Below are positions 1 through 33,994 of a stretch of 55,490 bases of DNA, one piece after another. The stretch comes from Clostridia bacterium. Its GTDB lineage: Bacteria; Bacillota; Clostridia; Christensenellales; CAG-138. Within the stretch, counting starts at the first letter, position 1, and every line of letters begins with the position of its first letter. The stretch covers positions 1 to 55,490 of the forward strand of contig JAFSLH010000011.1 in assembly GCA_017448545.1 (NCBI GenBank), written 5' to 3'. The notes beneath the pieces were generated by a model, which made no database searches, was not told the origin of the DNA, and was given only the letters and a program-made list of their open reading frames with translations. The position numbers and the translations under genes are program-made.

Positions 1-1026
1 CACATCACCGGAAAACTTGAAGATCGGGCTGATCGCATCCCAATTGTCATACCAACGCTTCATGGCGCGGGGATATTTTTCCTCCCAAGTTGCCGTGACT
101 TCATCCAACGCTTTTCGTCCTTCCGATTCGGATGGTGCATGGTAGATCGTTTTCAGGTCTTTGGCAAACGCCTTTCTGTCCTTGTCCGCAACATACTTCA
201 GCGTATTCCTCACCTGATGTACCAAGCAGCGTTGGTATTCTGTGTTCGGATATGCCGCTGCAATCGCTTCCTTGATCCCGGTCAGTCCATCGGCACAGAG
301 AATCAAGATATCCTTTACGCCGCGATTCTTCAATTCGTTCAGTACAGACAGCCAGTATTTGGAGCTTTCATTATCCCCGATCTGAATAGACAGGACTTCC
401 TTTCTGCCCTCGCAGTTGATTCCCAGGATCACATATGCTGCCATCTTCCGAATCACGTTGCTGTCTCTTACGGAATAGTGGATCGCGTCGATGAACACGA
501 CCGGATAGACGTCCTGCAATGGCCGCTTCTGCCATTCCTCGATCTGCGGCAGCAGTTTATCTGTAACATCCGAAATGAAGCCCTCAGATGCTTCAAAACC
601 ATAGATATCCATGAGCGTATCCGAAATCTGTCTTGTCGTCATGCCTTTGGCATACATCGATATGATCTTCTGATCGATCTCTGTAATATCCTTCTGCCGT
701 TTCTTCACAACCTTCGGTTCGAATGTGGATTTTCGATCCTGCGGCACTTCGATCTCCATTCCACCGTAGCTGGTTGTGATTCGCTTGCTCTTATACCCGT
801 TACGGGCATCCTCGCTATCCGACCGTGCCGACTTTTCATATCCCAGATGCTCTTCCATCTCGGTTTCCATCATCTCTTTGATCGTTCCGCCGAGCAAATC
901 TTTCAGCGCTTCCTGGATATCTGCTGCAGATTCGATATTATACTCCTGCAGCAGCCCTTGAATGATGTTCCGTTTCCCTTCTGTCATGGGTCCCGGCTTG
1001 TAATACTCTTTCTTTTTGTTTGCCAT
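1..1026 (-). CDS. IS256-family transposase, 3' end beyond window
   Basis: DDE transposase that moves its own insertion sequence. The frame is open from an ATG at 1026 to the window edge (342 codons, no stop), so the C-terminal part is missing. The start has a strong GGAGG site 9 nt upstream. Family marks: an N-terminal helical region, the HLGYEK block, the first catalytic Asp in VVFIDAIHYSVRD, the second Asp in ILCADGLTGIKEAI, and the YQRCLVHQVRNT stretch typical of IS256 Mutator-like enzymes. The catalytic Glu should lie beyond the left edge. The reading frame is intact over what is visible, so the element may be active. It sits at the outer end of an AT-rich island and may mark recent insertion there. 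Family assignment is confident; completeness cannot be judged. Confidence 0.93.
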   Translation of the reverse strand, partial: MANKKKEYYKPGPMTEGKRNIIQGLLQEYNIESAADIQEALKDLLGGTIKEMMETEMEEHLGYEKSARSDSEDARNGYKSKRITTSYGGMEIEVPQDRKSTFEPKVVKKRQKDITEIDQKIISMYAKGMTTRQISDTLMDIYGFEASEGFISDVTDKLLPQIEEWQKRPLQDVYPVVFIDAIHYSVRDSNVIRKMAAYVILGINCEGRKEVLSIQIGDNESSKYWLSVLNELKNRGVKDILILCADGLTGIKEAIAAAYPNTEYQRCLVHQVRNTLKYVADKDRKAFAKDLKTIYHAPSESEGRKALDEVTATWEEKYPRAMKRWYDNWDAISPIFKFSGDV

Positions 1027-1461: not shown

Positions 1462-2817
1462 TTAGAACACTTCCCAATATCCTGCTCTGCTTGAGCCAAT
1501 TCGTTTAATTTTTCCTTCACCAGATAATTTGTCAAGTGCTCTTTGTATGGTTCTTGCTGTTTTCCCTACCTTTATAGCCAAGTTTTCTCTTGTTTGCGTG
1601 GGATCCTCTTTCAAGAGCATATATACTTTTGTTGCTGTTGCAAATTTAACCTCATCATCTTTTTTTGCGACAGTTTCGGTGACATTTTGGGTGACATCTT
1701 TCATGCTCTTGTCCCTATAAAACACAAACGAAAACCCTCCGTTTTCTGACGAAGATCCAACCTTGACGTGATACTTGTCGCAGAAATAGAACACTTTTCT
1801 AAATCCACTTCCAAACATCTCCACGTCCTTGCTTTTATATAGAGCATTCAGAATGACTCGGTTTCTGGGCATGGATCTGATTTTTTGTCTTGCAAACATT
1901 TCTGGTGACAAGCCGGAAGGAAACTCACCCGGATTATAAACCTCAATCCGGGTTGGTGTTATATCGATTTCGTTTTCCGTTATACCCCTGAAATCTGCGT
2001 GTGCAAAGGAATTCACCACAATTTCTCTGATTGCATCGACAGGTATTTCTGGAATCTCTATACGTGAAGTACCTTCCCCTTTTTCCACCCTCCAGTCTAT
2101 ATGCTCTTTTATATACGAAAACCCTTTTCCTATCAGATTAAAGATGTTGTCATCAATTCTATCAATATCCGAAAAATTGATTCTCTCATCTGTAACATAA
2201 ACTGCTAGTTTTAATGTGACAGGTTTCCTGTTTGAAAACAGATAATACCCTGCATTATTCAGCTTACCATTTTCAAATAGGCCAAGGCCCGTCAGTAGAG
2301 TTTCACCATCATACTCTGCCATTCTTTCTAATCTTCCGCAGGAGACCGCTTTTTTGTAAAATGTTTCAAGAGCTTTTTCATCAACAGCTTCCATGCCGAA
2401 GTTGGTCTGATGATTCTCCCAATATGAAGAGCTGTCGGTTTCGGCCATCATTCTTTTCAATTCATCCGGGGTCATTTCTTCTGTACGATCAAATACTCTT
2501 TTATAGTACCTGCCGAAAGAAGAGTAGGGTTTCTCCTGGCCCGAAAAATCAACTCTGATAACATCTTTGCCGTCAAAGGTTTCTTTTTTGACTTCCGGAT
2601 ATATCATGGGCTTGATAGTCTCTTTGATCTTCCTTGCAACGTCATCGAGAGATGACGCGCTAATCTGCTGCCCTGTTACATCTCCGTTTGGGGAAACTCC
2701 AAAGTATAGTGTGCCGTGTCCATGCTTATTCAGCATGCTGGCGATATTATCCATTGCTTTTTCAATTTCACCGGTTGTTTTCTTAAACTCCAGGGTTTCA
2801 GACTCTATGCCAAGATT
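1462..2817 (-). CDS. Schlafen/AlbA_2-domain ATPase-like protein with C-terminal winged helix
   Basis: About 451 aa. Residues 1-130 form an AlbA_2 (Schlafen-type, formerly 'divergent AAA') domain: ESETLEFKKT, then GHGTLYFGVSPNGDVTG and the KPYSSFGRYYKR segment. The middle carries the RecG-related ATP-binding C-terminal region common in this family, with AIREIVVNSFAHADF (the N-box-like HATPase motif). The end (KVGKTARTIQRALDKLSGEGKIKRIGS) is a winged helix. An ATG at 2853 is possible but falls at the edge of the -10 box, so I choose the GTG at 2817, which has AAAGGAG 9 nt upstream. Such proteins act as DNA/RNA-binding regulators or nucleases and are common in mobile and defence regions. The specific role here is unknown. 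It is transcribed alone or with the tiny ORF after it. Confidence 0.85.
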   Translation of the reverse strand, partial: NLGIESETLEFKKTTGEIEKAMDNIASMLNKHGHGTLYFGVSPNGDVTGQQISASSLDDVARKIKETIKPMIYPEVKKETFDGKDVIRVDFSGQEKPYSSFGRYYKRVFDRTEEMTPDELKRMMAETDSSSYWENHQTNFGMEAVDEKALETFYKKAVSCGRLERMAEYDGETLLTGLGLFENGKLNNAGYYLFSNRKPVTLKLAVYVTDERINFSDIDRIDDNIFNLIGKGFSYIKEHIDWRVEKGEGTSRIEIPEIPVDAIREIVVNSFAHADFRGITENEIDITPTRIEVYNPGEFPSGLSPEMFARQKIRSMPRNRVILNALYKSKDVEMFGSGFRKVFYFCDKYHVKVGSSSENGGFSFVFYRDKSMKDVTQNVTETVAKKDDEVKFATATKVYMLLKEDPTQTRENLAIKVGKTARTIQRALDKLSGEGKIKRIGSSRAGYWEVF

Positions 2818-2851
2818 CACTTGTTTGTGCTCCTTTCGTATTTTTGATGAC

Positions 2852-2880
2852 ATTATATCATGCTTTTAGCAGAATGTCAC
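2852..2880 (-). promoter_or_regulatory. Promoter for the AlbA_2 gene
   Basis: Minus strand GTGACA, 17-nt spacer, TATAAT. The -10 overlaps the upstream candidate ATG at 2853, so transcription should begin inside that reading frame. This supports the GTG start at 2817. Confidence 0.65.
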
Positions 2881-3107: not shown

Positions 3108-5960
3108 TCAAGCATTCCATTCAAAGCCGTGATGGGCTCTTAAAGGTTCTAAAAGATTCCTAATCTTCGGGCAGTCATTCGAGTCTAAATGCCCCTTGCT
3201 ATTCTTTTCATCAATTGAAAGTATAAAGCTGCCTTCATTACTCCATCTCCTGTCATGCTGCTTATGAATATAAAACTCATATTTGCCTTCAAACTCTGAT
3301 TCTTCGGTGATACATTCCAAAATAGTATCCTCCTTTTCAAGGTCTCCTAGGTATCTGATTGATAAGGTGTCATCCACATTGTCAATGGTGCGCGTCAGCT
3401 TGCCTTTTCTTCTTTTCACATTTTGGGCAGTAAAATAATAACTGCGTCTCTTTTTTGCTGTGTCCCACAACTTGATAAAAAGAGCATAATCAATGAAAAA
3501 GTCAATCCGATCATTAACGTTCTGTTTTAAAAGAATGTTACGTTTAACATCTTCATAATCCGAACGAGAGATATACTTGTCGACGCAAATACGAAGTTTA
3601 TCAGACATACAATAAAGGTTTTCATAAAAGATTCTATATAAATTCAAAAGCCGTATGTCTGTAACTGTATTCTTTTTATTGATATTTATATCATTAATTG
3701 TTTCAACGTGCTCTTTTATTACTGAATAACCTAGTAAATGTACCTGCTGAAGCATATAGTCTACAGCAAGGTTCTGCACAGTCTCTTTTTCAAGAGTTTT
3801 TGCGAAGACATACTCTGTTTTATCAATTTGAGTCAATACCGGTCCATTAATTGAGTCGTGAAGATATTTCTTCGCAATAGCAGTAAGACACTTTTGCATC
3901 ACTTTGTAAAAGCCTTCATAAATCTCCACAACTGACGTATTGGTATTGTTATAACTTGCGGATGCAAATTTCTTGAAAGAATCTATATCGTCTTTATAAA
4001 TTATGCATTTGTCGCCTTCTTCAATCGAAGTATCGCTATTGTTATGACCTGCGGAGGATTTCTTGGAAGGCTTTTTATTGTCATCATGAATTATAAGTAT
4101 GTCTTCATAATCTTTACCAAACTCTGTTATAAATGCGAGCCATAAATAACCAATACTACGTATATTGGGTAGCTTGTCAATAACTCGTTTGCATTTCTCG
4201 CAGAATTCTTTACCCGTTTTCCTAAGTACTAAATAAAACGATATATTTTTACGCCATTCTTCGACAATATTTTGCTTTGTCGCAATCGATAAGGTTTCTT
4301 TCATATTATCAGGATTGCTAATAAGTTTAACAAATCTATCAATTCCATACTCCTCCAGTATACGAATCTTAACGGTAAAAGGATTGCCGGATACAAATGC
4401 GTCAAATAGAACCGAATCAGTCATGCCTTGATATGAATGAAGTATCTTTAGCTGATTGATACACTCGGCTCTGACCTTAGCAAAAGAACTACTAAACATC
4501 ATAATGTTCAGTAATGCTCCGCTATCATAGTTGAGCACAAATCTTGTTCCGATAGAATTGTCTTTATCGTCCCTATCTTCTATTGTATCAACAGTCAATT
4601 CATCGCATGCGATAACATTGATGATTCTTCTGCTGACAAACCAACTCGTGTCATATATACCATCATCAGCATTGCGACAGCAACAGAAATACTTCCTTTC
4701 ACAAGGATCCACTCTATCGCTAATAAACAACCTTGTAATAGGTGTTCCGCATTCCGGACAAACTTTAATATTGTTTTGATCCGTTACTTCGAAATATACG
4801 CGATCCCACTCTTGAAGATCATCACACATTCTAAAAATGTGTGACAAAGGTTCTTTGTATATATCACTTCTAATGAGATCTGGTACTTTTTTCTTGTTGA
4901 TAATGGCAAATTTGTTGGTATGGTTGTAGATTATCAATGCAGCAACTTCGATTGCACAGTGCTGTAAAATAGAGAGATTTTGTCCATGTTGATAAAAATA
5001 CATCAAAAGTACTACCGCCGATTGAGCACCATGCTCTTCAGTATCTTCCATTCTATTCTTAATTCTATCAGATAGAGCAACATTGAACAGAAGACTTGTC
5101 TGAAGCGTCTGTTCAATAGCAGCATAATCATTACTTACGCTGGTAAGAAGCTGACAGATTGGAAGATTTTTACCAATACCAGTGCTGATTCTTCGAATAT
5201 AGCTGATAGGATAACCTATATCATGCACAAGAGCCGCAATGATAGTTGCAGAATAAACAATATAGTGAAACATCAGTTTTCGCATGGCTGCATGGTATTC
5301 TTCTGTTGTCTCACAGCAGCTCCCTGTCTGTGTATAGCCATTTAATTCAAGAATACTACGGTAGTATCTACGATCAGTATCTGTCAGCGAAAGCAACTCC
5401 TTCTCGATGGCTTCAAAAATATATGTTCCTACCCTGCTTTCAGGGTTAGAATAGGCATTCCAGCATTTATCATAGTATCCAAACTCATCAAGCAAAGTGA
5501 ACATTTCAAATAGATTCCTAATCTGATGAACATAATGATCCCGATAATATCTACTGTCATGTTTATTATAATCAATTTCAAGATGCATACCCCATTCATA
5601 TTCAAAATATGCAGGCGAAAAAAAGTCGCATAAGCCACTAATCCCAGTATAATCATATATAAAGCGATCGCGAACAAGATTTAGCATCTCTATGTACTCA
5701 TTGGTATATCGCCCAGCGTCTTTATAGACTTGTGCAATTCCCAATGCCGCAGAAGCTTCATCTCTATATGACAGATTATGGTTTGCACGACTATGAAATT
5801 GGGCATCAAGGATGTCGTTCCACAGATCATTATGCTCCATAGCAATCTGAGTACTTACTTTTTTTCTTGCTAATTCTTTGTTATACGCAAATAAATACTT
5901 ATGCTCAAATGCATCAAATCGTCTGAGAAACTCTAAACATTCCGTTTTATTCCATTTCAT
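3108..5960 (-). CDS. Large HD-domain protein with cysteine cluster, third gene of unknown three-gene unit
   Basis: About 950 aa, no known family recognised over the full length. Counting from M5960, HD-superfamily metal-binding residues are visible: H246-D247 in ALVHDIGYP, H310 in EEHGAQSA, H347 in IIYNHT, and D380/D381 in RMCDDLQEWDR. This spacing fits an HD phosphohydrolase. It is followed at once by CPECG (401-404) and a Cys-rich stretch ending CCCR (420-428), a likely zinc site. The remaining roughly 500 residues are helical and charged with no motif I can name. The ATG at 5990 lies inside a hairpin; the one at 5960 follows an AGGAGG site, though at long spacing, and is preferred. HD enzymes hydrolyse nucleotides, cyclic nucleotides or nucleic acid; the substrate here is unknown. 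It is separated from the ATPase gene by about 100 nt. Confidence 0.75.
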   Translation of the reverse strand: MKWNKTECLEFLRRFDAFEHKYLFAYNKELARKKVSTQIAMEHNDLWNDILDAQFHSRANHNLSYRDEASAALGIAQVYKDAGRYTNEYIEMLNLVRDRFIYDYTGISGLCDFFSPAYFEYEWGMHLEIDYNKHDSRYYRDHYVHQIRNLFEMFTLLDEFGYYDKCWNAYSNPESRVGTYIFEAIEKELLSLTDTDRRYYRSILELNGYTQTGSCCETTEEYHAAMRKLMFHYIVYSATIIAALVHDIGYPISYIRRISTGIGKNLPICQLLTSVSNDYAAIEQTLQTSLLFNVALSDRIKNRMEDTEEHGAQSAVVLLMYFYQHGQNLSILQHCAIEVAALIIYNHTNKFAIINKKKVPDLIRSDIYKEPLSHIFRMCDDLQEWDRVYFEVTDQNNIKVCPECGTPITRLFISDRVDPCERKYFCCCRNADDGIYDTSWFVSRRIINVIACDELTVDTIEDRDDKDNSIGTRFVLNYDSGALLNIMMFSSSFAKVRAECINQLKILHSYQGMTDSVLFDAFVSGNPFTVKIRILEEYGIDRFVKLISNPDNMKETLSIATKQNIVEEWRKNISFYLVLRKTGKEFCEKCKRVIDKLPNIRSIGYLWLAFITEFGKDYEDILIIHDDNKKPSKKSSAGHNNSDTSIEEGDKCIIYKDDIDSFKKFASASYNNTNTSVVEIYEGFYKVMQKCLTAIAKKYLHDSINGPVLTQIDKTEYVFAKTLEKETVQNLAVDYMLQQVHLLGYSVIKEHVETINDININKKNTVTDIRLLNLYRIFYENLYCMSDKLRICVDKYISRSDYEDVKRNILLKQNVNDRIDFFIDYALFIKLWDTAKKRRSYYFTAQNVKRRKGKLTRTIDNVDDTLSIRYLGDLEKEDTILECITEESEFEGKYEFYIHKQHDRRWSNEGSFILSIDEKNSKGHLDSNDCPKIRNLLEPLRAHHGFEWNA

Positions 5961-5986
5961 AGTATGATTGTCCAACCTCCTAATAA

Positions 5987-6008
5987 GCATCCCCTCACTT
6001 GAGGATGC
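5987..6008 (-). other. Intercistronic hairpin before the HD gene
   Basis: GCATCCTC / GAGG(GG)ATGC forms a short stem with a 4-nt loop and a two-base bulge, in the roughly 100-nt gap between the ATPase and HD genes. It has no T tract, so it is more likely an mRNA processing or translation element than a terminator. It buries the upstream ATG of the HD gene. Confidence 0.35.
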
Positions 6009-6057
6009 ATTTTTAGTTTTAATCCGTATATAAGCCTATAAAAGAGCGTTCTCTATC

Positions 6058-7140
6058 TTATCTGTCAAAAGTCTCTATCAAACCATTTGCTATTAATATA
6101 ACAGAACCATTGCTTGCGGCGGCGTGATACTGTTCATCATTACCCAATTGACAATAAGACAATCGTGACAATTCAAACGAAATATTAGAAAGCGCCTTTC
6201 CATATACATCGCTCATATTCTCAAAAGCGCCTTTAATCTTTTTAATCATCTCATCTTTAAGACTAAATCTAGTATTCGAATACGGACCAACATTGTGTAC
6301 ATAATAAACATTTTCTGCTGATGTCAGCCTCATAGTGTGGATATGTTCTATTGCCGCTTCCGTTGCTGTTCTGACATGAGCATTATCTGCGGTGGAAACG
6401 TAATAGATGTTGATTTTACAGTCCTGCTTATGTTTGTTTACAAATCCGAGTAAGCAATCAATAAGATGCTCGGAAAAAGCATCTGTTCCCGGCGGCATAT
6501 CGAATACGATATCTGTGTATTTATCGTTTAAGATATAGCCAAGCAACGTTTTTATTTTTGCTATATATGCGCCTACACCGACAGCTGATTTCCCAAAACT
6601 TTGATATAAGTTACCAAAAACACTTCGACCAGACGGAGATGGATCAGAGAAAATAAAATACGCCTTGCCTAAATAGTAATAATGACTATTAGGGGAAGGT
6701 TGTGCACTTTTTTCGTTTTCATCCAAACTGTTCGCATCTGCGGTATTGCTTTGACTTCTAGATATTGTTATTTGCTTAAGTTTAGCAGGAATCGCTAATT
6801 CGCTAACCTTCGAATAATAGCCCTTATATGGGTGCATAAACGAATTCAACGTGTGATTAAGGTGTTGACTTCGCTGCTCAATAGCATCATAAATATTACT
6901 CGAAAGCTGTGCCGGGTAAAACTCAAAGCAACATGTCTCTGAAGCATTAACACTTGTGTTTCCCGTCGCATAATTTAAAAGCATAGTTCTAGTTTCCGAA
7001 GCGTGAACATCTGCGTCAATATACAGTATCTTATTTGTGTGTTCTTTATCATCTGCAATCAGCTTCACTAATTGGTGTAAAGCAAAAGTTGTCTTCCCGC
7101 TGCCTCCTTTTACGGAACGCACAACATGAAATACAGTCAT
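6058..7140 (-). CDS. ParA/MinD/Mrp-type (SIMIBI) ATPase, second gene of unknown three-gene unit
   Basis: 360 aa. It starts at the ATG at 7140, seven nt after GGGAGG; an upstream ATG at 7176 overlaps the preceding gene and lacks a site. Visible ATPase motifs are the deviant Walker A KGGSGKTT (residues 11-18) with the signature Lys, the A' motif ILYIDADVHASET (38-50), and Walker B DIVFDMPPGTD (210-220), which resembles the Mrp/MinD form. The region at 100-165 is an insertion with low-complexity Ser/Asn/Asp and may be a partner-binding loop. SIMIBI ATPases dimerise on ATP and position or assemble partner complexes. Here both partners, the 743-aa and HD proteins, are encoded on either side. It is unlikely to be a plasmid partition gene: there is no ParB and no centromere-like repeats. 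Confidence 0.82.
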   Translation of the reverse strand: MTVFHVVRSVKGGSGKTTFALHQLVKLIADDKEHTNKILYIDADVHASETRTMLLNYATGNTSVNASETCCFEFYPAQLSSNIYDAIEQRSQHLNHTLNSFMHPYKGYYSKVSELAIPAKLKQITISRSQSNTADANSLDENEKSAQPSPNSHYYYLGKAYFIFSDPSPSGRSVFGNLYQSFGKSAVGVGAYIAKIKTLLGYILNDKYTDIVFDMPPGTDAFSEHLIDCLLGFVNKHKQDCKINIYYVSTADNAHVRTATEAAIEHIHTMRLTSAENVYYVHNVGPYSNTRFSLKDEMIKKIKGAFENMSDVYGKALSNISFELSRLSYCQLGNDEQYHAAASNGSVILIANGLIETFDR

Positions 7141-7163
7141 GTCCAACCTCCCTACAAGATGTG

Positions 7164-9395
7164 TTATTTGCAACAAACCGCAATTGTGCAGTCGTTGAAC
7201 CCAATTCTTTCACAAATAGTACCAAACTTCTTAAGGATCATACTCGGTTCGATGTTCCCGATATATCCTTCAACTGAATAATACAATTCGTTTCTGGCAT
7301 CGCTGAAGAATCTATATGGTTTTGAATTAATGCTGCTGATCGCATCCATAAATACATGGTTTATACTATGACGTCTTGCTATAAGAAGCGGATCTGTTTC
7401 CTCTCGTTCAAAAACACTTTTGATTTGACTATACCGCTTCTGATCGCAAATAACATCTTTGCAGACAAAGTCGCTCTGCAATTTCTGCGCGAGAATCATG
7501 TAAGAAAACATTAAGTGCTCAATGGTTTCAGCGTCGGCAATAATAGCGTTTGCTAAAATGTTTTTGCAAAACCACGTCGAACATTTATCATAGCAATTCC
7601 GATCAAAAACGATCTTCAGAACAGAACGAATGATTCTATTTGCGATATCCAAATAGACAGAACTATTTTCTTTATCATATTTAGAAATAATTGAATAGAA
7701 AACAGTATGTTTGCTATTCAAATACGAATAGTCAAATTCTACAACCGTTTCACAGCAGAACTTGATAAAATCTAAATCGGCAATTTCATTTTCATCCAAT
7801 CCCTGTGAATTGTGATGATGATATAACTCTAAAAAACCATTTGTATAGAAATAATCATCAATCGATTTCAGCATTTTCCAAAATCGAAAGGATAGTTTGT
7901 TCTTATATTCAGCATTGCATACATTTGAGAATAGTTCACTTTGCAAATTGAACTCATTCTTCTCTGTTCTCCTCCAATCATAAACCGTCAGTGCTATACC
8001 CTGGTAGTATTCCGTTCGGCAAAGGTTGTTGTACTGAAACTTCTTTTTCAATGCCTCTCCTCTACTCCTTGAGAGATATGTGAAAACAGACCGTCCCGGA
8101 ACAACCAATTGCTTAAGTTTGACAAGCGTTGCAAAGAGACGAGGATCAAATTCATATTGATGATTTTCTCCATAAAATGTAAATTCTATCCATTTCAAAT
8201 ATGACTTATATAGATTCTCATAAGATAAAATATCTACTCCATCACTCCCGTTCCTATCCTTTTGAACATTAATGATTCTAATGCATTCCAAAACATCCTC
8301 ATAGGGTGAACCTTTTGAAAAATCAATGCCACGGCATGTGTCGCTATAAAAGCAGCCCATATCAAGCAAACATGTGATATCGTACTTATCAGTTACCCTC
8401 TTTAAAAAGTTTACATCATGCAGATTGCCTGTGATTCTTTTATCAAAAGGAATACTCTCGTCATCCTCAACAAAATCAATCGACGCAGCATTCAAACTCT
8501 TTAATTTGAAGTGAACAACTTTAACATCGTACTGTTCAGATTGCGGATCATCTTTATTCTCCCGAAAGAATCCATCTTTTGCCAATGCCTCAATGTTTAG
8601 TTTGCCATCATCCGAAAAAGAACCAAATGCCGCGATCAATATTACGTTTTCATTGCTTGCGCGGCAGTATGCATTCTTATATTTCTTTTTATAAGCGATT
8701 TGATGCCATATCTTTTCAATTAGTCTTGCGCTGTCAATTCGGCTTAAAGATTGTGCATGCTGAAAAGGAATGGCATTTATGTAATTGCCATCATATGTCT
8801 TTAAGTCGTCCTTCAACGCGCTTCTTGTCGCAACATATCTTTCACCAGCATATGTAAACTGAGCAAAATCATTTATGACCTTGCGTAGAGTTAAAGATCT
8901 TGCCGCAATCAACTTTCGTAATAGGTAAGACTCCTTATCCGGGTTCTCTGCAATCTCGTTAAGCTTGCGAGACATCAACTCCATCTTATGGTTATTAAGC
9001 AGAATATTAATGCTTGTCGTGCCATTCACTCGAAGATATGTTTCCCCTGAATCAACATCATATTGCAAACAAGCTGTGTTGTCATTCTCCAGAACGTCAT
9101 TCGAGTTGTTGTATGTGGCATGATCGTCGAAGTATCCGAAAGCACTTAAGAATACTTCTTCTCCCCACGGGGCTCCAATAGAATACGGGTCTTTTGAATA
9201 CTTGTTGAATAAATCAACAGTTCTAGTATAGAACTGATAAAACCGCTGAGCCAAGGCAGAATCCGTCTGTTCTTGTTGATCAAAACCATTTACCAGTGAA
9301 GAAATGTATTCCAATATCGCTTGTTTATTTTTTGGTACGACAACAATGCTGCCTTCATCAGTCAGCATTGAATTATTTTTCTCTTTATCAGCCAT
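7164..9395 (-). CDS. 743-aa protein of unknown family, first gene of the three-gene unit
   Basis: I recognise no domain. The protein is soluble-looking, with no signal peptide or membrane segment, mixed alpha/beta at the N-terminus (residues about 1-350) and mostly helical later. Possibly functional segments are NENVILIAAFGSFSDDG (about 240-256), a beta-strand-then-loop pattern, and the acidic FVEDDESIPFDKR. Cysteines are scattered rather than paired, including the terminal CTIAVCCK. The ATG at 9395 has no strong Shine-Dalgarno site. It ends 23 nt before the ATPase gene, so the two are translationally close and certainly co-transcribed. Codon use and AT-richness match the rest of the island. 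It could be a sensor or scaffold for the ATPase and HD protein; this is inference from gene order only. Confidence 0.7.
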   Translation of the reverse strand: MADKEKNNSMLTDEGSIVVVPKNKQAILEYISSLVNGFDQQEQTDSALAQRFYQFYTRTVDLFNKYSKDPYSIGAPWGEEVFLSAFGYFDDHATYNNSNDVLENDNTACLQYDVDSGETYLRVNGTTSINILLNNHKMELMSRKLNEIAENPDKESYLLRKLIAARSLTLRKVINDFAQFTYAGERYVATRSALKDDLKTYDGNYINAIPFQHAQSLSRIDSARLIEKIWHQIAYKKKYKNAYCRASNENVILIAAFGSFSDDGKLNIEALAKDGFFRENKDDPQSEQYDVKVVHFKLKSLNAASIDFVEDDESIPFDKRITGNLHDVNFLKRVTDKYDITCLLDMGCFYSDTCRGIDFSKGSPYEDVLECIRIINVQKDRNGSDGVDILSYENLYKSYLKWIEFTFYGENHQYEFDPRLFATLVKLKQLVVPGRSVFTYLSRSRGEALKKKFQYNNLCRTEYYQGIALTVYDWRRTEKNEFNLQSELFSNVCNAEYKNKLSFRFWKMLKSIDDYFYTNGFLELYHHHNSQGLDENEIADLDFIKFCCETVVEFDYSYLNSKHTVFYSIISKYDKENSSVYLDIANRIIRSVLKIVFDRNCYDKCSTWFCKNILANAIIADAETIEHLMFSYMILAQKLQSDFVCKDVICDQKRYSQIKSVFEREETDPLLIARRHSINHVFMDAISSINSKPYRFFSDARNELYYSVEGYIGNIEPSMILKKFGTICERIGFNDCTIAVCCK

Positions 9396-10198: not shown

Positions 10199-11350
10199 TT
10201 ATCTAACAATAAAGGATGCTTCACTTTCTTTTCTCTCGGTAACAATGTAAAATAGACAACCCTTAAATAGCATGTCTTTTATCACATAGTCATGAGGATG
10301 CCTATATCTATTATAAACTCCAACAGAAACAACATAGTATCTTGATTGATCATTTGTGAGTTCTTCGTTGTAATTATACTTTGATCCATGATGTGGCACT
10401 TGAATGCATCCTATCGATTCCCAATACTCTGAAAGTGCCCTTACTAAACCGTCCCATTTTCTCTTTCCGTTCGCATCATAATCTCCCATGTATAAACACC
10501 CCGGCTTTGCTATATGATCAAAACAGCATTCATTTGCACAGCATTTGAATCTTGTCGACCGAAAAACATCGTATTTAACTTGGACCATATTGTTTTTTGG
10601 TCCCGAAAACAATACCATAGAGTTGGTATTTAGACTTCCCGGTATCTTTTTAAAAGCATTTTTTATCTTTTCAATGTTATTAGGCTCGTTTTCAACAAGT
10701 CTTAAGATTTCATTTAGAGTCATTCGCTTTTTAAAAACTTTTTCCAGTTCAATTAGCAACTCATCATATCTCGTTTCCTGCTGAAAATTATAAGGAACAT
10801 AATGCCATTCATAAACAATTTCATTGTTATCGTTTGGTAAAAGTCGATAAGTAACATCTTCACCAGACGGAACAATTCTATTACTTTTATAATTCTCCTG
10901 ATCGTTCTTAAAGCTATCGCTTTGATATATTTGCACATAGTATATGGTAGTGTCCCATGGAATGAGCCCATGTAAGCTGTGAAAACTCTTGAAAAATGAA
11001 GAGAAGAATCTTTTATTTGAAGAAAATGAAAGACCAGTCAAACAAACTAATTGCAGATAACTCAATTCCTCTTCTGTGACCAAAGGAATAAAGAGGTTTT
11101 TAACCCTATAGTGCTCAAGTATATATGGGAGACCATTAATATGGTCCTCGTCAAAATGAGATATAAATACAGCGTGTATGTTCGAATGTTCCTTTATATT
11201 TTCTTTCAAACAAGCTATAAGTGTATCTACTGATGTCGACGAACCACAGTCATACAATACAGTAATATTTTGTCTTTCATCATCCTTCAAGTTAAATTTC
11301 TCAATATAACAAGCACCTTGCCCAACTGGTAAAAAACTTCTTATCATCAT
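10199..11350 (-). CDS. ComEC/Rec2-like metallo-beta-lactamase-fold hydrolase
   Basis: 383 aa counting from the ATG at 11350; the GTG at 11362 is an alternative. The metal ligands of the MBL fold are visible: SHFDEDHINGL (His65, Asp67, Asp69, His70), GD at about 289-290 in CLYMGDYD, the PHHGS motif at 319-323, and RHPHD near 351. PHHGS and the fused D-E-D-H form are typical of the ComEC-type MBL branch found in stand-alone 'competence-like' hydrolases. There is no membrane segment, so it is cytoplasmic and not a DNA-uptake channel. The residues between 85 and 270 are an unusual long insertion. Such proteins occur often in defence and mobile regions, sometimes paired with helicase- or ATPase-like genes. 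Whether it belongs with the three-gene unit 800 nt downstream is unclear. Confidence 0.8.
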   Translation of the reverse strand: MMIRSFLPVGQGACYIEKFNLKDDERQNITVLYDCGSSTSVDTLIACLKENIKEHSNIHAVFISHFDEDHINGLPYILEHYRVKNLFIPLVTEEELSYLQLVCLTGLSFSSNKRFFSSFFKSFHSLHGLIPWDTTIYYVQIYQSDSFKNDQENYKSNRIVPSGEDVTYRLLPNDNNEIVYEWHYVPYNFQQETRYDELLIELEKVFKKRMTLNEILRLVENEPNNIEKIKNAFKKIPGSLNTNSMVLFSGPKNNMVQVKYDVFRSTRFKCCANECCFDHIAKPGCLYMGDYDANGKRKWDGLVRALSEYWESIGCIQVPHHGSKYNYNEELTNDQSRYYVVSVGVYNRYRHPHDYVIKDMLFKGCLFYIVTERKESEASFIVR

Positions 11351-11729
11351 GTTTTGCCCCACCCCGATTCTTAATCGCTCTCAATACTTCTATATTTCGA
11401 AAACAATGCAAAAGCGTTTGTTTCCTAATTCTGACACCTGCTAGAAAGTGTTCAAACGAAGGATTGTTTCGTCATTTTATTGTATAAAGAAGACGAAAAC
11501 ATTCTTAGATGATTCCATACTGTTTTTCCTTTCAAGGAGTTCTATATATAAAGAAACCACAATATGCAAAAAAATCCATTGTAAAAATAATATATTATTT
11601 CAAAGCAATTTTTCTTCACTAATAATCGCAATCTCTCTATCGTTATTACCCTGTTTGACATAAAACTAGCAATCATGCGCATAATATTTCTCAATTGAAA
11701 ATCCTTATCCGTGAAATTGCTATTTTATT

Positions 11730-11765
11730 TTGACTAACTTTTTGACTAACTTTTGACTAACTTTC
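11730..11765. repeat. Triple TTGACTAACTTT direct repeat near the island end
   Basis: Three copies of TGACTAACTTT at 11-12 nt spacing, followed by GTGGAC twice (11,769 and 11,788) and GGACTAAAAC. Short direct repeats beside an attachment site are the usual arm-type binding sites of tyrosine integrases, which is the likely meaning here. The rest of 11,351-11,893 shows no gene: it is AT-rich, with only short chance frames on both strands. Confidence 0.5.
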
Positions 11766-11893: not shown

Positions 11894-11938
11894 CTCCTAA
11901 GCGAAAGGTCGCGCGTTCAAGTCGCGCCAGGGACGCCA
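11894..11938 (+). other. 3' half of tRNA-Arg(CCU): attachment-site scar of the island
   Basis: From C32 of the anticodon loop to the CCA end the sequence fits a tRNA exactly: loop CTCCTAA (anticodon CCT, U33 present), variable AGGTC, T-stem GCGCG / CGCGC around TTCAAGT, acceptor CAGGGAC, discriminator G, CCA. Upstream of the anticodon loop the match stops: the 27-31 positions do not pair with 39-43, and no acceptor 5' strand (GTCCCTG) appears 70 nt back. This is what remains when an element integrates at a tRNA 3' end with crossover at the anticodon loop. The intact tRNA should be at the other, left, end of the element, outside the window. Confidence 0.78.
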
Positions 11939-12222: not shown

Positions 12223-12304
12223 AACACAGGGGGACGGTTCTTCTGTGTTCTGTTCTCTCACACGCATGGCAGCGTTCACACAGCAAGAACCGTCCCCGCT
12301 GTGT
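12223..12304. repeat. Pair of inverted REP-like palindromes, 3' of the transposase
   Basis: Two 27-nt units in opposite orientation (12,223-12,249 and 12,278-12,304). Each has ACACA-type ends that pair with each other around the core GGGGACGGTTCTT. The second reaches into the end of the transposase gene. They are REP/BIME-type elements recognised by the neighbouring Y1 transposase. Confidence 0.7.
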
Positions 12305-12305
12305 G

Positions 12306-13058
12306 TTACCGTGCTTTGTACTTTCGCACGATCTCCGTCGAAACTCCCGTAATCCGCGCGATTTGTCTGATTGACAGTTTCTCGCGCATCCGTTCGATCG
12401 CTCTCACTTGCTTCTCATACGGAAGCTTCTGAAACGCACTCGGCTGATCGCACTTGCAAATGCCCTTCATGATCTCCCGCGCTTCTTCATCCGTCTTTCT
12501 GCCAGACTCCGCTATTTCAAGGCACTCAAATTCCGTCGGTGTATTGAAAAACGTCTCAAGATCCTCGCCTTCCATCATTGCCTTGATGTCTTCCGTCTGT
12601 GCATACGGCGCTTTTCGAAGGTCTAAATACTCCTGTATGCTACTGTACGGATACTCTTCGCATCGCTTGCAGATTCCCGCCTTTACCGGATTCCGATGCA
12701 CGTATCGCACTACAGCAATCAAATATGCGTCATCTTCCACCGGCTCGCTTCCGTATCGGTCTTGAAACAGGTGCCCGCAGCGTTTATACTTCCAGTTGTA
12801 CCAGTAAACGAAGCGTACTCCGATCCGCTTTATGATCTGTTCAAGCGGCTCATTTCCTTCCTTCAATACGAGATGCACGTGATTCCCCATCAGACAATAT
12901 GCGTACAATGTAAATTCGCTGATTGCACGACTGTCCGATACTGCCTGCAAAAACCGTTCTGCATCTTCGGCGTCGATAAAAATCTGCTGTCGGTTAATTC
13001 CTCGCAGCGTAACGTGGTAGACGCCCGTTTTGCTCTTCTTTCTTGCTGTTCTCGGCAT
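12306..13058 (-). CDS. REP-associated tyrosine transposase (RAYT, IS200/IS605 Y1 type)
   Basis: 250 aa. The N-terminal 150 residues are a Y1 transposase domain: TGVYHVTLRGINRQQIF, the metal-binding HUH motif GNHVHLVL, and FQDRYGSEPVEDDAYLIAVVRYVHRNP, where the helix carrying the catalytic Tyr is expected. The C-terminal 45 residues (YEKQVRAIERMREKLSIRQIARITGVSTEIVRKYKAR) are a DnaA-like helix-turn-helix for sequence recognition. Single-strand nicking and joining of REP palindromes is the family role. It is complete and framed by four copies of its presumed target palindrome. It lies in the host-like sequence, just outside the tRNA scar. Confidence 0.92.
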   Translation of the reverse strand: MPRTARKKSKTGVYHVTLRGINRQQIFIDAEDAERFLQAVSDSRAISEFTLYAYCLMGNHVHLVLKEGNEPLEQIIKRIGVRFVYWYNWKYKRCGHLFQDRYGSEPVEDDAYLIAVVRYVHRNPVKAGICKRCEEYPYSSIQEYLDLRKAPYAQTEDIKAMMEGEDLETFFNTPTEFECLEIAESGRKTDEEAREIMKGICKCDQPSAFQKLPYEKQVRAIERMREKLSIRQIARITGVSTEIVRKYKAR

Positions 13059-33905: not shown

Positions 33906-33994
33906 GGAGAGATGTCCGAGAGGTCGATGGTGCAGCACTCGAAATGCTGTGTCCCCTAAAGGGACCCTGGGTTCGAATCCCAGTCTCTCCGCCA
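33906..33994 (+). tRNA. tRNA-Ser(CGA)
   Basis: Class II tRNA of 89 nt with encoded CCA. Acceptor GGAGAGA / TCTCTCC, anticodon stem GCA / TGC extended by CA/TG around loop CTCGAAA (anticodon CGA, serine UCG), long variable arm (GTCCC / GGGAC), and T-arm CTGGG-TTCGAAT-CCCAG. Single-gene transcript with its own promoter and terminator. Confidence 0.96.

Follow-up and report, generated by a model that had tools for sequence, protein, structure and literature searches.

Closest described systems

In the portions of PMC8092258 considered here, SspFGH damages unmodified DNA and loss of any of its three genes ends protection, and in the portions of PMC10853773 considered here DndFGH has a P-loop F, a G with a triple winged helix-turn-helix, and a modular H whose motor is exchanged among lineages, the HerA/FtsK domains of DndH having been captured repeatedly and from varied sources. 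We analysed a unit of three minus-strand genes at 3108-9395 of a 55,490-nucleotide window, which is one whole contig (G000:C23) from the genome of a Clostridia bacterium (1.5 Mb, 60% complete); the genes encode a large protein of 743 amino acids (aa), a ParA/MinD-type ATPase and an HD-domain protein. The three genes form a real conserved unit that is apparently undescribed in the open-licence literature and that is found, with its gene order intact, in other bacteria of distant kinship; it seems to be a stripped-down cousin of DNA-restricting immune systems in which the pump has been swapped for a segregation-type ATPase and an HD hydrolase. The reading that we favour, at not quite an even chance, is that they make up a mobile system, probably directed against invaders, with kinship to the F-G-H modules of SspFGH and DndFGH.

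Relatives of the unit occur in two layouts, a three-gene form like that of the window and a five-gene form with two further genes in front. The five-gene relatives resemble SspFGH (PMC8092258) in having an SspF-like gene, a gene in the SspG position and a large protein in the place where SspH or DndH would sit. They differ in size and content: SspH and six plasmid relatives are 1621-1811 aa long with FtsK annotated in 6 of the 7, whereas the large proteins here are 694-1042 aa long, gave no FtsK match when scanned and are followed by the ATPase and HD genes; the window unit, moreover, lacks F and G. The main text of PMC10853773 does not contain the terms 'HD domain', 'MinD' or 'SIMIBI', has 'para' solely inside other words, and in its sections 19-22 and 25 does not describe a ParA/MinD-type ATPase and an HD protein in place of the restriction endonuclease (REase) and HerA/FtsK parts. 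Haloarchaeal plasmid operons (L037, L041, L045 and L047, annotated with DruA or DUF4338, and the unannotated L044) also hold F-, G- and H-like genes, and among the remote matches of the five-gene large protein the H proteins of L037, L044 and L045 rank best; these operons differ in the DruA or DUF4338 gene, in keeping FtsK, fused or as a separate gene, and in having no gene annotated as HD in annotation tables that are incomplete and give many genes as 'hypothetical'.

The unit and its relatives

All three open reading frames (ORFs) exist on the minus strand, at 7164-9395 (gene 1), 6058-7176/7140 (gene 2) and 3108-5990 (gene 3). The most likely start of the ATPase is the ATG at 7140, which is preceded by GGAGG and leaves 23 nt to the gene for the 743-aa protein. 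The HD ORF opens at 5990 (960 aa), and an alternative ATG at 5960 (residue 11, giving 950 aa), close to where the alignment with relatives begins, leaves 97 nt to the ATPase gene; the gaps of 23 and roughly 100 nt given in an earlier note on this DNA were thus borne out.

When the HD protein was used as a single query, 8 of 200 genomes of the order matched, its own included and the seven others over the HD core alone, and in the phylum 2 of 398 genomes matched, its own and G613 (E 9e-38), whose neighbouring genes are alike (a 1042-aa protein, a KGGAGKTT ATPase and the HD protein). An alignment of these two HD proteins, scanned on the species-genome collection, yielded 21 loci from 49 pattern matches. 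The HD gene is whole in 19 of them (L016-L034, where L022 is the G613 locus again), L035 being cut by a contig start and L036 being a remnant. The ATPase gene lies directly upstream of the HD gene in 19/19 loci with a whole HD gene, and a large protein of 694-1042 aa comes next upstream in 18/19. The exception, L020 (7901-14704), holds the ATPase-HD pair with two small upstream genes and, downstream, a SMODS-like gene (E 4.6e-5, below cut-off); its gene at 12284-12850 is CYTH-like by eye.

The three-gene layout is found in the window and in L016, L017, L018, L019 and L021, and the five-gene layout in the 13 loci L022-L034, all of which begin with a gene for a P-loop protein of 514-557 aa followed by one for a protein of 492-527 aa. 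In a tree of the HD proteins, a branch with support 100/100 splits the five-gene loci from the three-gene loci and L020. Both layouts occur within one metagenome-assembled genome (MAG) twice (L017 and L028 in G956; L018 and L031 in G957), which argues for units moving as wholes. A single P-loop gene split by an in-frame stop was suspected in L012/L022 and dropped, other loci showing two separate genes. Spread of the unit across phyla was considered and is not claimed, the record titles of L023 and L020 not being trusted.

Co-divergence of the three genes was assessed by a Mantel test on 14 of the 19 units, the window included, that were kept after near-copies had been dropped. The distance correlations were 0.931 for HD-ATPase, 0.967 for HD-large protein and 0.956 for ATPase-large protein, and 0 of 2000 permutations was as high in any of the three comparisons. 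Correlations were similar within each layout: r was 0.94-0.96 among the five-gene loci (n = 8), with no more than 1 of 2000 permutations reaching the observed value, and 0.94-0.98 among the three-gene loci (n = 6), with no more than 17 of 2000 doing so; an organism history in common could add to them. Together with the constant gene order, these values uphold the earlier view of the three genes as one unit. Profiles of the HD protein (E 1e-8) and of the large protein (E 1e-5), run on 391 genomes from the class, each matched the same two, and no large protein turned up in this sample without an HD gene; the genes showed no sign of occurring independently of one another in this comparison, a weak test since both matched genomes are profile members. 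The unit is rare in this sample of the class.

F- and G-like partners

In the five-gene form, the first gene matched PADLOC SspF in 3/3 loci tested (E 9e-23, 3e-14 and 3e-20), which shows the presence of an SspF-like partner, and a P-loop gene occupies the F place in 13/13 five-gene relatives. An SspG-like partner is moderately supported, the second gene matching SspG in 1/3 loci tested (L023, E 3.5e-11). Neither an F-like nor a G-like gene was found beside the window unit, and the SspG profile gave no match in the window's own genome, in a search that matched no control either. A plasmid search with the SspF-like first gene led to a Microvirga SspFGH locus (L038) with cysteine desulfurase, DUF4007 and PAPS-reductase-like genes and an FtsK-bearing H, and also to the haloarchaeal F-G-FtsK operons compared above. 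DUF4007, a domain of SspB, was detected in 2 of the 17 genomes holding relatives, many of them MAGs by title, so that its absence is weak evidence; because of this low count, phosphorothioation is probably not a general self-mark of the unit. On another plasmid, L039 (6550-17971), a 'kinase'-annotated protein with an SspF-like part (E 1.6e-9) precedes a G-position gene and an 1858-aa H-position gene, and this operon lies near an N-6 methylase.

The large protein

Single-sequence searches with the 743-aa protein found itself as the sole match, and its link to the five-gene large proteins runs through intermediates, since the stepwise comparisons gave lower E-values and the window protein alone gave E 0.27. 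It matched the large proteins of L016-L018 at E 6.5e-20; these four together matched that of L019 at E 1e-8 and that of L021 at E 6e-5; and the L019 and L021 proteins matched the five-gene large proteins at E 7.2e-7, compared with E 0.0012 for the window and L016-L018 proteins. When all six three-gene large proteins were combined, the match to the five-gene ones reached E 1.6e-11 over 476 columns with a score of 105.8, against at most 20.4 in nine column-shuffled or reversed controls. The three-gene protein covers columns 385-890 of 984, approximately the C-terminal half of the five-gene protein.

The profile of the five-gene large proteins gave a colinear match of 578 columns to the haloarchaeal H proteins of three plasmids, with E 3.7e-4 and a score of 45.9; no score exceeded 21.3 among nine column-shuffled or reversed controls or 26.3 among seven other families. 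With a joint large-protein profile, the match to haloarchaeal H covered 219 columns and reached E 9.8e-7; a joint H set was matched by the five-gene profile at E 5.3e-5. On these comparisons the five-gene large protein probably has a remote relationship to the SspH/DndH H subunit, and the 743-aa protein of the window, for which we would say so slightly less firmly, may well be related to it too; as a whole the H-subunit relation is moderately supported. Bacterial SspH was rejected as a direct homologue of the large protein, the match not being significant.

In 19 aligned large proteins, D339 and D345 are present in 19/19 and Y350 and P140 in 18/19, which defines the motif D339-x5-D345-x4-Y350 (DITCLLDMGCFY; 8346-8381, minus strand). 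From D345 onward no column other than D345 itself holds D, E or K at 80% or more, so a PD-ExK core is not conserved, with the reservation that a weak core may escape notice in so divergent an alignment. By eye, the H proteins of Haloplanus and Microvirga show ExK motifs. The earlier note had cast the first protein as a sensor or scaffold; scaffolding or DNA recognition fits better than a free-standing sensor, because the five-gene form has SspF- and SspG-like genes and a probable remote H relative.

The ATPase and the HD protein

Neither gene 1 nor gene 3 had a Pfam, NCBIfam, PADLOC or PHROGs family above cut-off, PADLOC giving no match even at E 1. The earlier note had named a metabolic or conjugation family as evidence against a defence unit; the 743-aa protein matched none above cut-off. 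The claim that no described system has this composition held in so far as these two genes lack a library family; the unit is, however, not without relatives, and its five-gene form is SspF/SspG-like. Gene 2 (6058-7140, 360 aa) gave P-loop families alone in Pfam, NCBIfam and PADLOC, all sub-threshold (AAA_31 and CbiA), and the sole PHROGs result for the three proteins was its match to 'ParA-like partition protein' (E 8e-6). The ATPase family profile matched Mrp/ApbC and ParA structures in the PDB at E 2e-8.

The ATPase motifs KGGSGKTT and DMPPGTD reported earlier are present. Residues were counted in 20 aligned proteins each for the ATPase and the HD protein, the window included. In the ATPase, S9, K11, G12, G13, G15, K16, D42, D44, D214 and D252 are found in 20/20, P217 and G218 in 19/20 and T17 in 17/20. 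The family thus has the deviant Walker A of SIMIBI ATPases (SVKGGSGKT, with signature lysine K11; 7090-7116, minus strand) and a Walker B-type DxxPG (DMPPG, D214-G218; 6487-6501, minus strand).

The HD core of gene 3 covers residues 150-395 (4806-5543, minus strand), with RDHxxH, HDIGYP, EHGxxSA, NHT and CDDLQEW; R150, H152, H155, H256, D257, H320, H357, D390 and D391 are each conserved in 20/20. The HD-superfamily ligands H...HD...D and an extra His pair are therefore present in the family, as in the set listed by the earlier note, which had missed the zinc-ribbon-like insert after the core (4677-4760, minus strand). The four Cys of that insert (C411, C414, C436 and C438) occur in 20/20 HD proteins, and zinc-ribbon matches to it are weak. 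The two extra His residues suggest a site with two metals, of a type characteristic of phosphodiesterases and Cas3-like nucleases and not of SAMHD1-like deoxynucleoside triphosphatases. Pfam HD matches were weak (6/20 members, best E 0.067), no HD structure was among the profile matches in the PDB, and a sequence search there with the HD core gave no match.

Certain HD proteins of the same order belong to the same HD core family, sharing RDHxxH, HDxGYP, [DE]HxxxSA and CD[DE]LQxW with the unit, and differ in carrying a RyR domain (L013-L015 as scanned, L003 alike by eye), in that the four-Cys ribbon was not seen by eye, and in that no such gene unit adjoins them. As members of a separate branch of the HD family, they were left aside. 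In L014 (1-7649) the HD+RyR gene lies about 2 kb from a divergent operon, on the other strand, encoding a KGGSGRST ATPase (PADLOC PDC-M28B, E 9e-9; E 0.094 against the window's ATPase) and a 628-aa protein.

Island setting and neighbouring genes

The unit sits at a tRNA-associated island edge. G+C content is 34-40% in the gene-bearing part of the first 12 kb and 60% beyond 13.1 kb; at the end of the low-GC stretch lies a tRNA-Arg(CCT) without a 5' half (11894-11938, plus strand). The island proposed in the earlier note is supported by this remnant, although the sole tRNA called by ARAGORN in the window, at 33906, is far from the unit. In the same-genus genomes G978 and G977 an intact tRNA-Arg(CCT) is followed by the same hairpin-like sequence. 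Because G981 has the same foreign left flank as the window and no tRNA call, related elements appear to have used the tRNA-Arg site more than once; the G099 copy of the site has no tRNA call either. A second place, 81% similar to the site, lies on C25 of the window's genome. Just inside the edge, three close copies of TTTTGACTAACT at 11728-11762 were noticed by eye and are possibly recombinase arm sites. The other end of the island is beyond the contig, which begins inside a Mutator-family transposase gene (1-1026, minus strand; an ORF at 139-1206 on the plus strand is antisense to it), and an IS200-like Y1 transposase lies just past the tRNA remnant (12306-13058, minus strand); the island proteins that were scanned included no integrase.

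The promoter predicted upstream has a best candidate at 9714-9687 (minus strand; TTGAAA-16-TATAAT, 11/12 consensus matches, with the TG of an extended -10), but the number of promoter-like sites in the region (36, with 30.1 +/- 5.1 expected) is close to chance. The predicted terminator corresponds to a strong hairpin 3' of gene 3 (3071-3033, minus strand; minimum free energy of a 91-nt stretch -23.4 kcal/mol, z -3.68) that lacks a U-run. Two neighbours were not counted as parts of the unit, neither having a relative in the fetched loci at E 1e-3. One is a metallo-beta-lactamase-fold protein of the ComEC/LmuA/Avs1a type (10199-11362, minus strand; PADLOC LmuA, E 7e-17) with no partner visible, and the other an AlbA_2/Schlafen-type protein (1462-2853, minus strand) that contains a RecG-like HATPase stretch and, at its end, a weak match to a winged helix.

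Proposed mechanism and alternatives

A defence role for the unit is, in our judgement, likely; the mechanism in the details that follow is much more tentative. The 743-aa protein would be an H-subunit remnant, a scaffold touching DNA or an invader component without a HerA/FtsK pump or a recognisable REase core. The ParA/MinD-type ATPase would replace the pump, its ATP-bound dimers loading the scaffold on target DNA, by analogy with the loading of ParA on nucleoid or plasmid DNA, and acting as a checkpoint. The HD protein, with its two-metal-type site and zinc ribbon, would be the effector, most likely a phosphodiesterase or nuclease of DNA or RNA and less likely an enzyme acting on nucleotides. 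In the five-gene relatives, SspF- and SspG-like subunits would add sensing and DNA binding, which the three-gene form does without. We propose this scheme, in which defence, loading, switch and cleavage are inferred, because the nuclease and motor that H would be missing are matched by the HD hydrolase and the ParA/MinD ATPase. It is possible, if rather doubtful, that the whole represents an immune architecture in which a ParA/MinD ATPase drives an H scaffold onto invader DNA and licenses an HD zinc-ribbon nuclease, both as an add-on to SspF/SspG-like sensors and in a free-standing three-gene form, here on a tRNA-associated island.

Several observations weigh against a counter-invader system of F-G-H descent. 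The five-gene large proteins did not match the bacterial SspH set (E 0.19), nor did the joint large-protein profile (E 0.11); the haloarchaeal H match fell to E 0.018 after two more H proteins had been added; and one protein pair with no expected relation reached E 0.003. The three-gene proteins gave no direct H match (E 0.63 for haloarchaeal H, 0.0034 for the joint H set and 0.0075 for SspH), and their relation to H therefore rests on the five-gene ones. PADLOC SspH was absent from 6 three-gene proteins, 12 five-gene C-terminal parts and 3 whole five-gene proteins, and no SspH match was found in the window's own, 60% complete genome. The neighbours of the 19 loci, whose closeness to known defence genes the earlier note had proposed to check, are by eye not visibly rich in such genes, and the defence activity of the unit is itself something that we infer. 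Lastly, the outside HD relatives carry RyR domains, and the HD protein could equally act on nucleotides.

This last point leads to the alternative that survives best, a nucleotide-centred conflict system in which the HD protein hydrolyses a nucleotide (a signal or a deoxynucleoside triphosphate), gated on infection by the ATPase and the large protein, and DNA is not the substrate. It would agree with the HD core being of one family with HD proteins of the order, the three scanned of which carry the RyR domain, and with the SMODS-like gene, below cut-off, near L020, where the large protein is missing. We consider it unlikely: no four-Cys ribbon is seen by eye in the RyR-type proteins, the literature describes partners of the F/G/H type, as in the five-gene form, as acting on DNA, and the extra H320 and H357 suggest a site of the two-metal phosphodiesterase type. 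More improbable still is a partition or maintenance module of an integrated element, with a ParA-like ATPase, an element-specific adaptor and an HD protein serving stability and not defence. An ATPase closest to ParA and Mrp, with its PHROGs partition match, on an island that ends in a tRNA fragment would suit such a module, but no match was found in 72,556 plasmids to the window's three proteins or the L023 large protein, in 50,697 phages to the 743-aa protein (one query), or in viral contigs with five queries. In addition, the SspF/SspG-type gene pair accompanies 13 of the 18 relatives with a large protein, and no ParB-like gene was recognised by eye adjoining the units, no dedicated search having been made. 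That three unrelated genes lie side by side by chance in one low-GC stretch, an idea that unrecognised proteins on a single MAG contig might invite, is scarcely credible and is refuted by the conservation of gene order in 18/19 relatives, with five-gene large proteins down to 15% identical and r of 0.93-0.97.

Implications

If a system related to SspFGH and DndFGH is indeed what the unit encodes, phosphorothioate-type restriction modules would be more modular than has been thought: a segregation-type ATPase could stand in for the DNA pump, which is regarded as the motor that they share, and an HD protein for the nuclease. The three-gene form would offer a compact test bed for ParA-type ATPases in immunity, and a candidate system, so far unlisted and seen mainly in Clostridia-type genomes, would be added to the defence catalogue.

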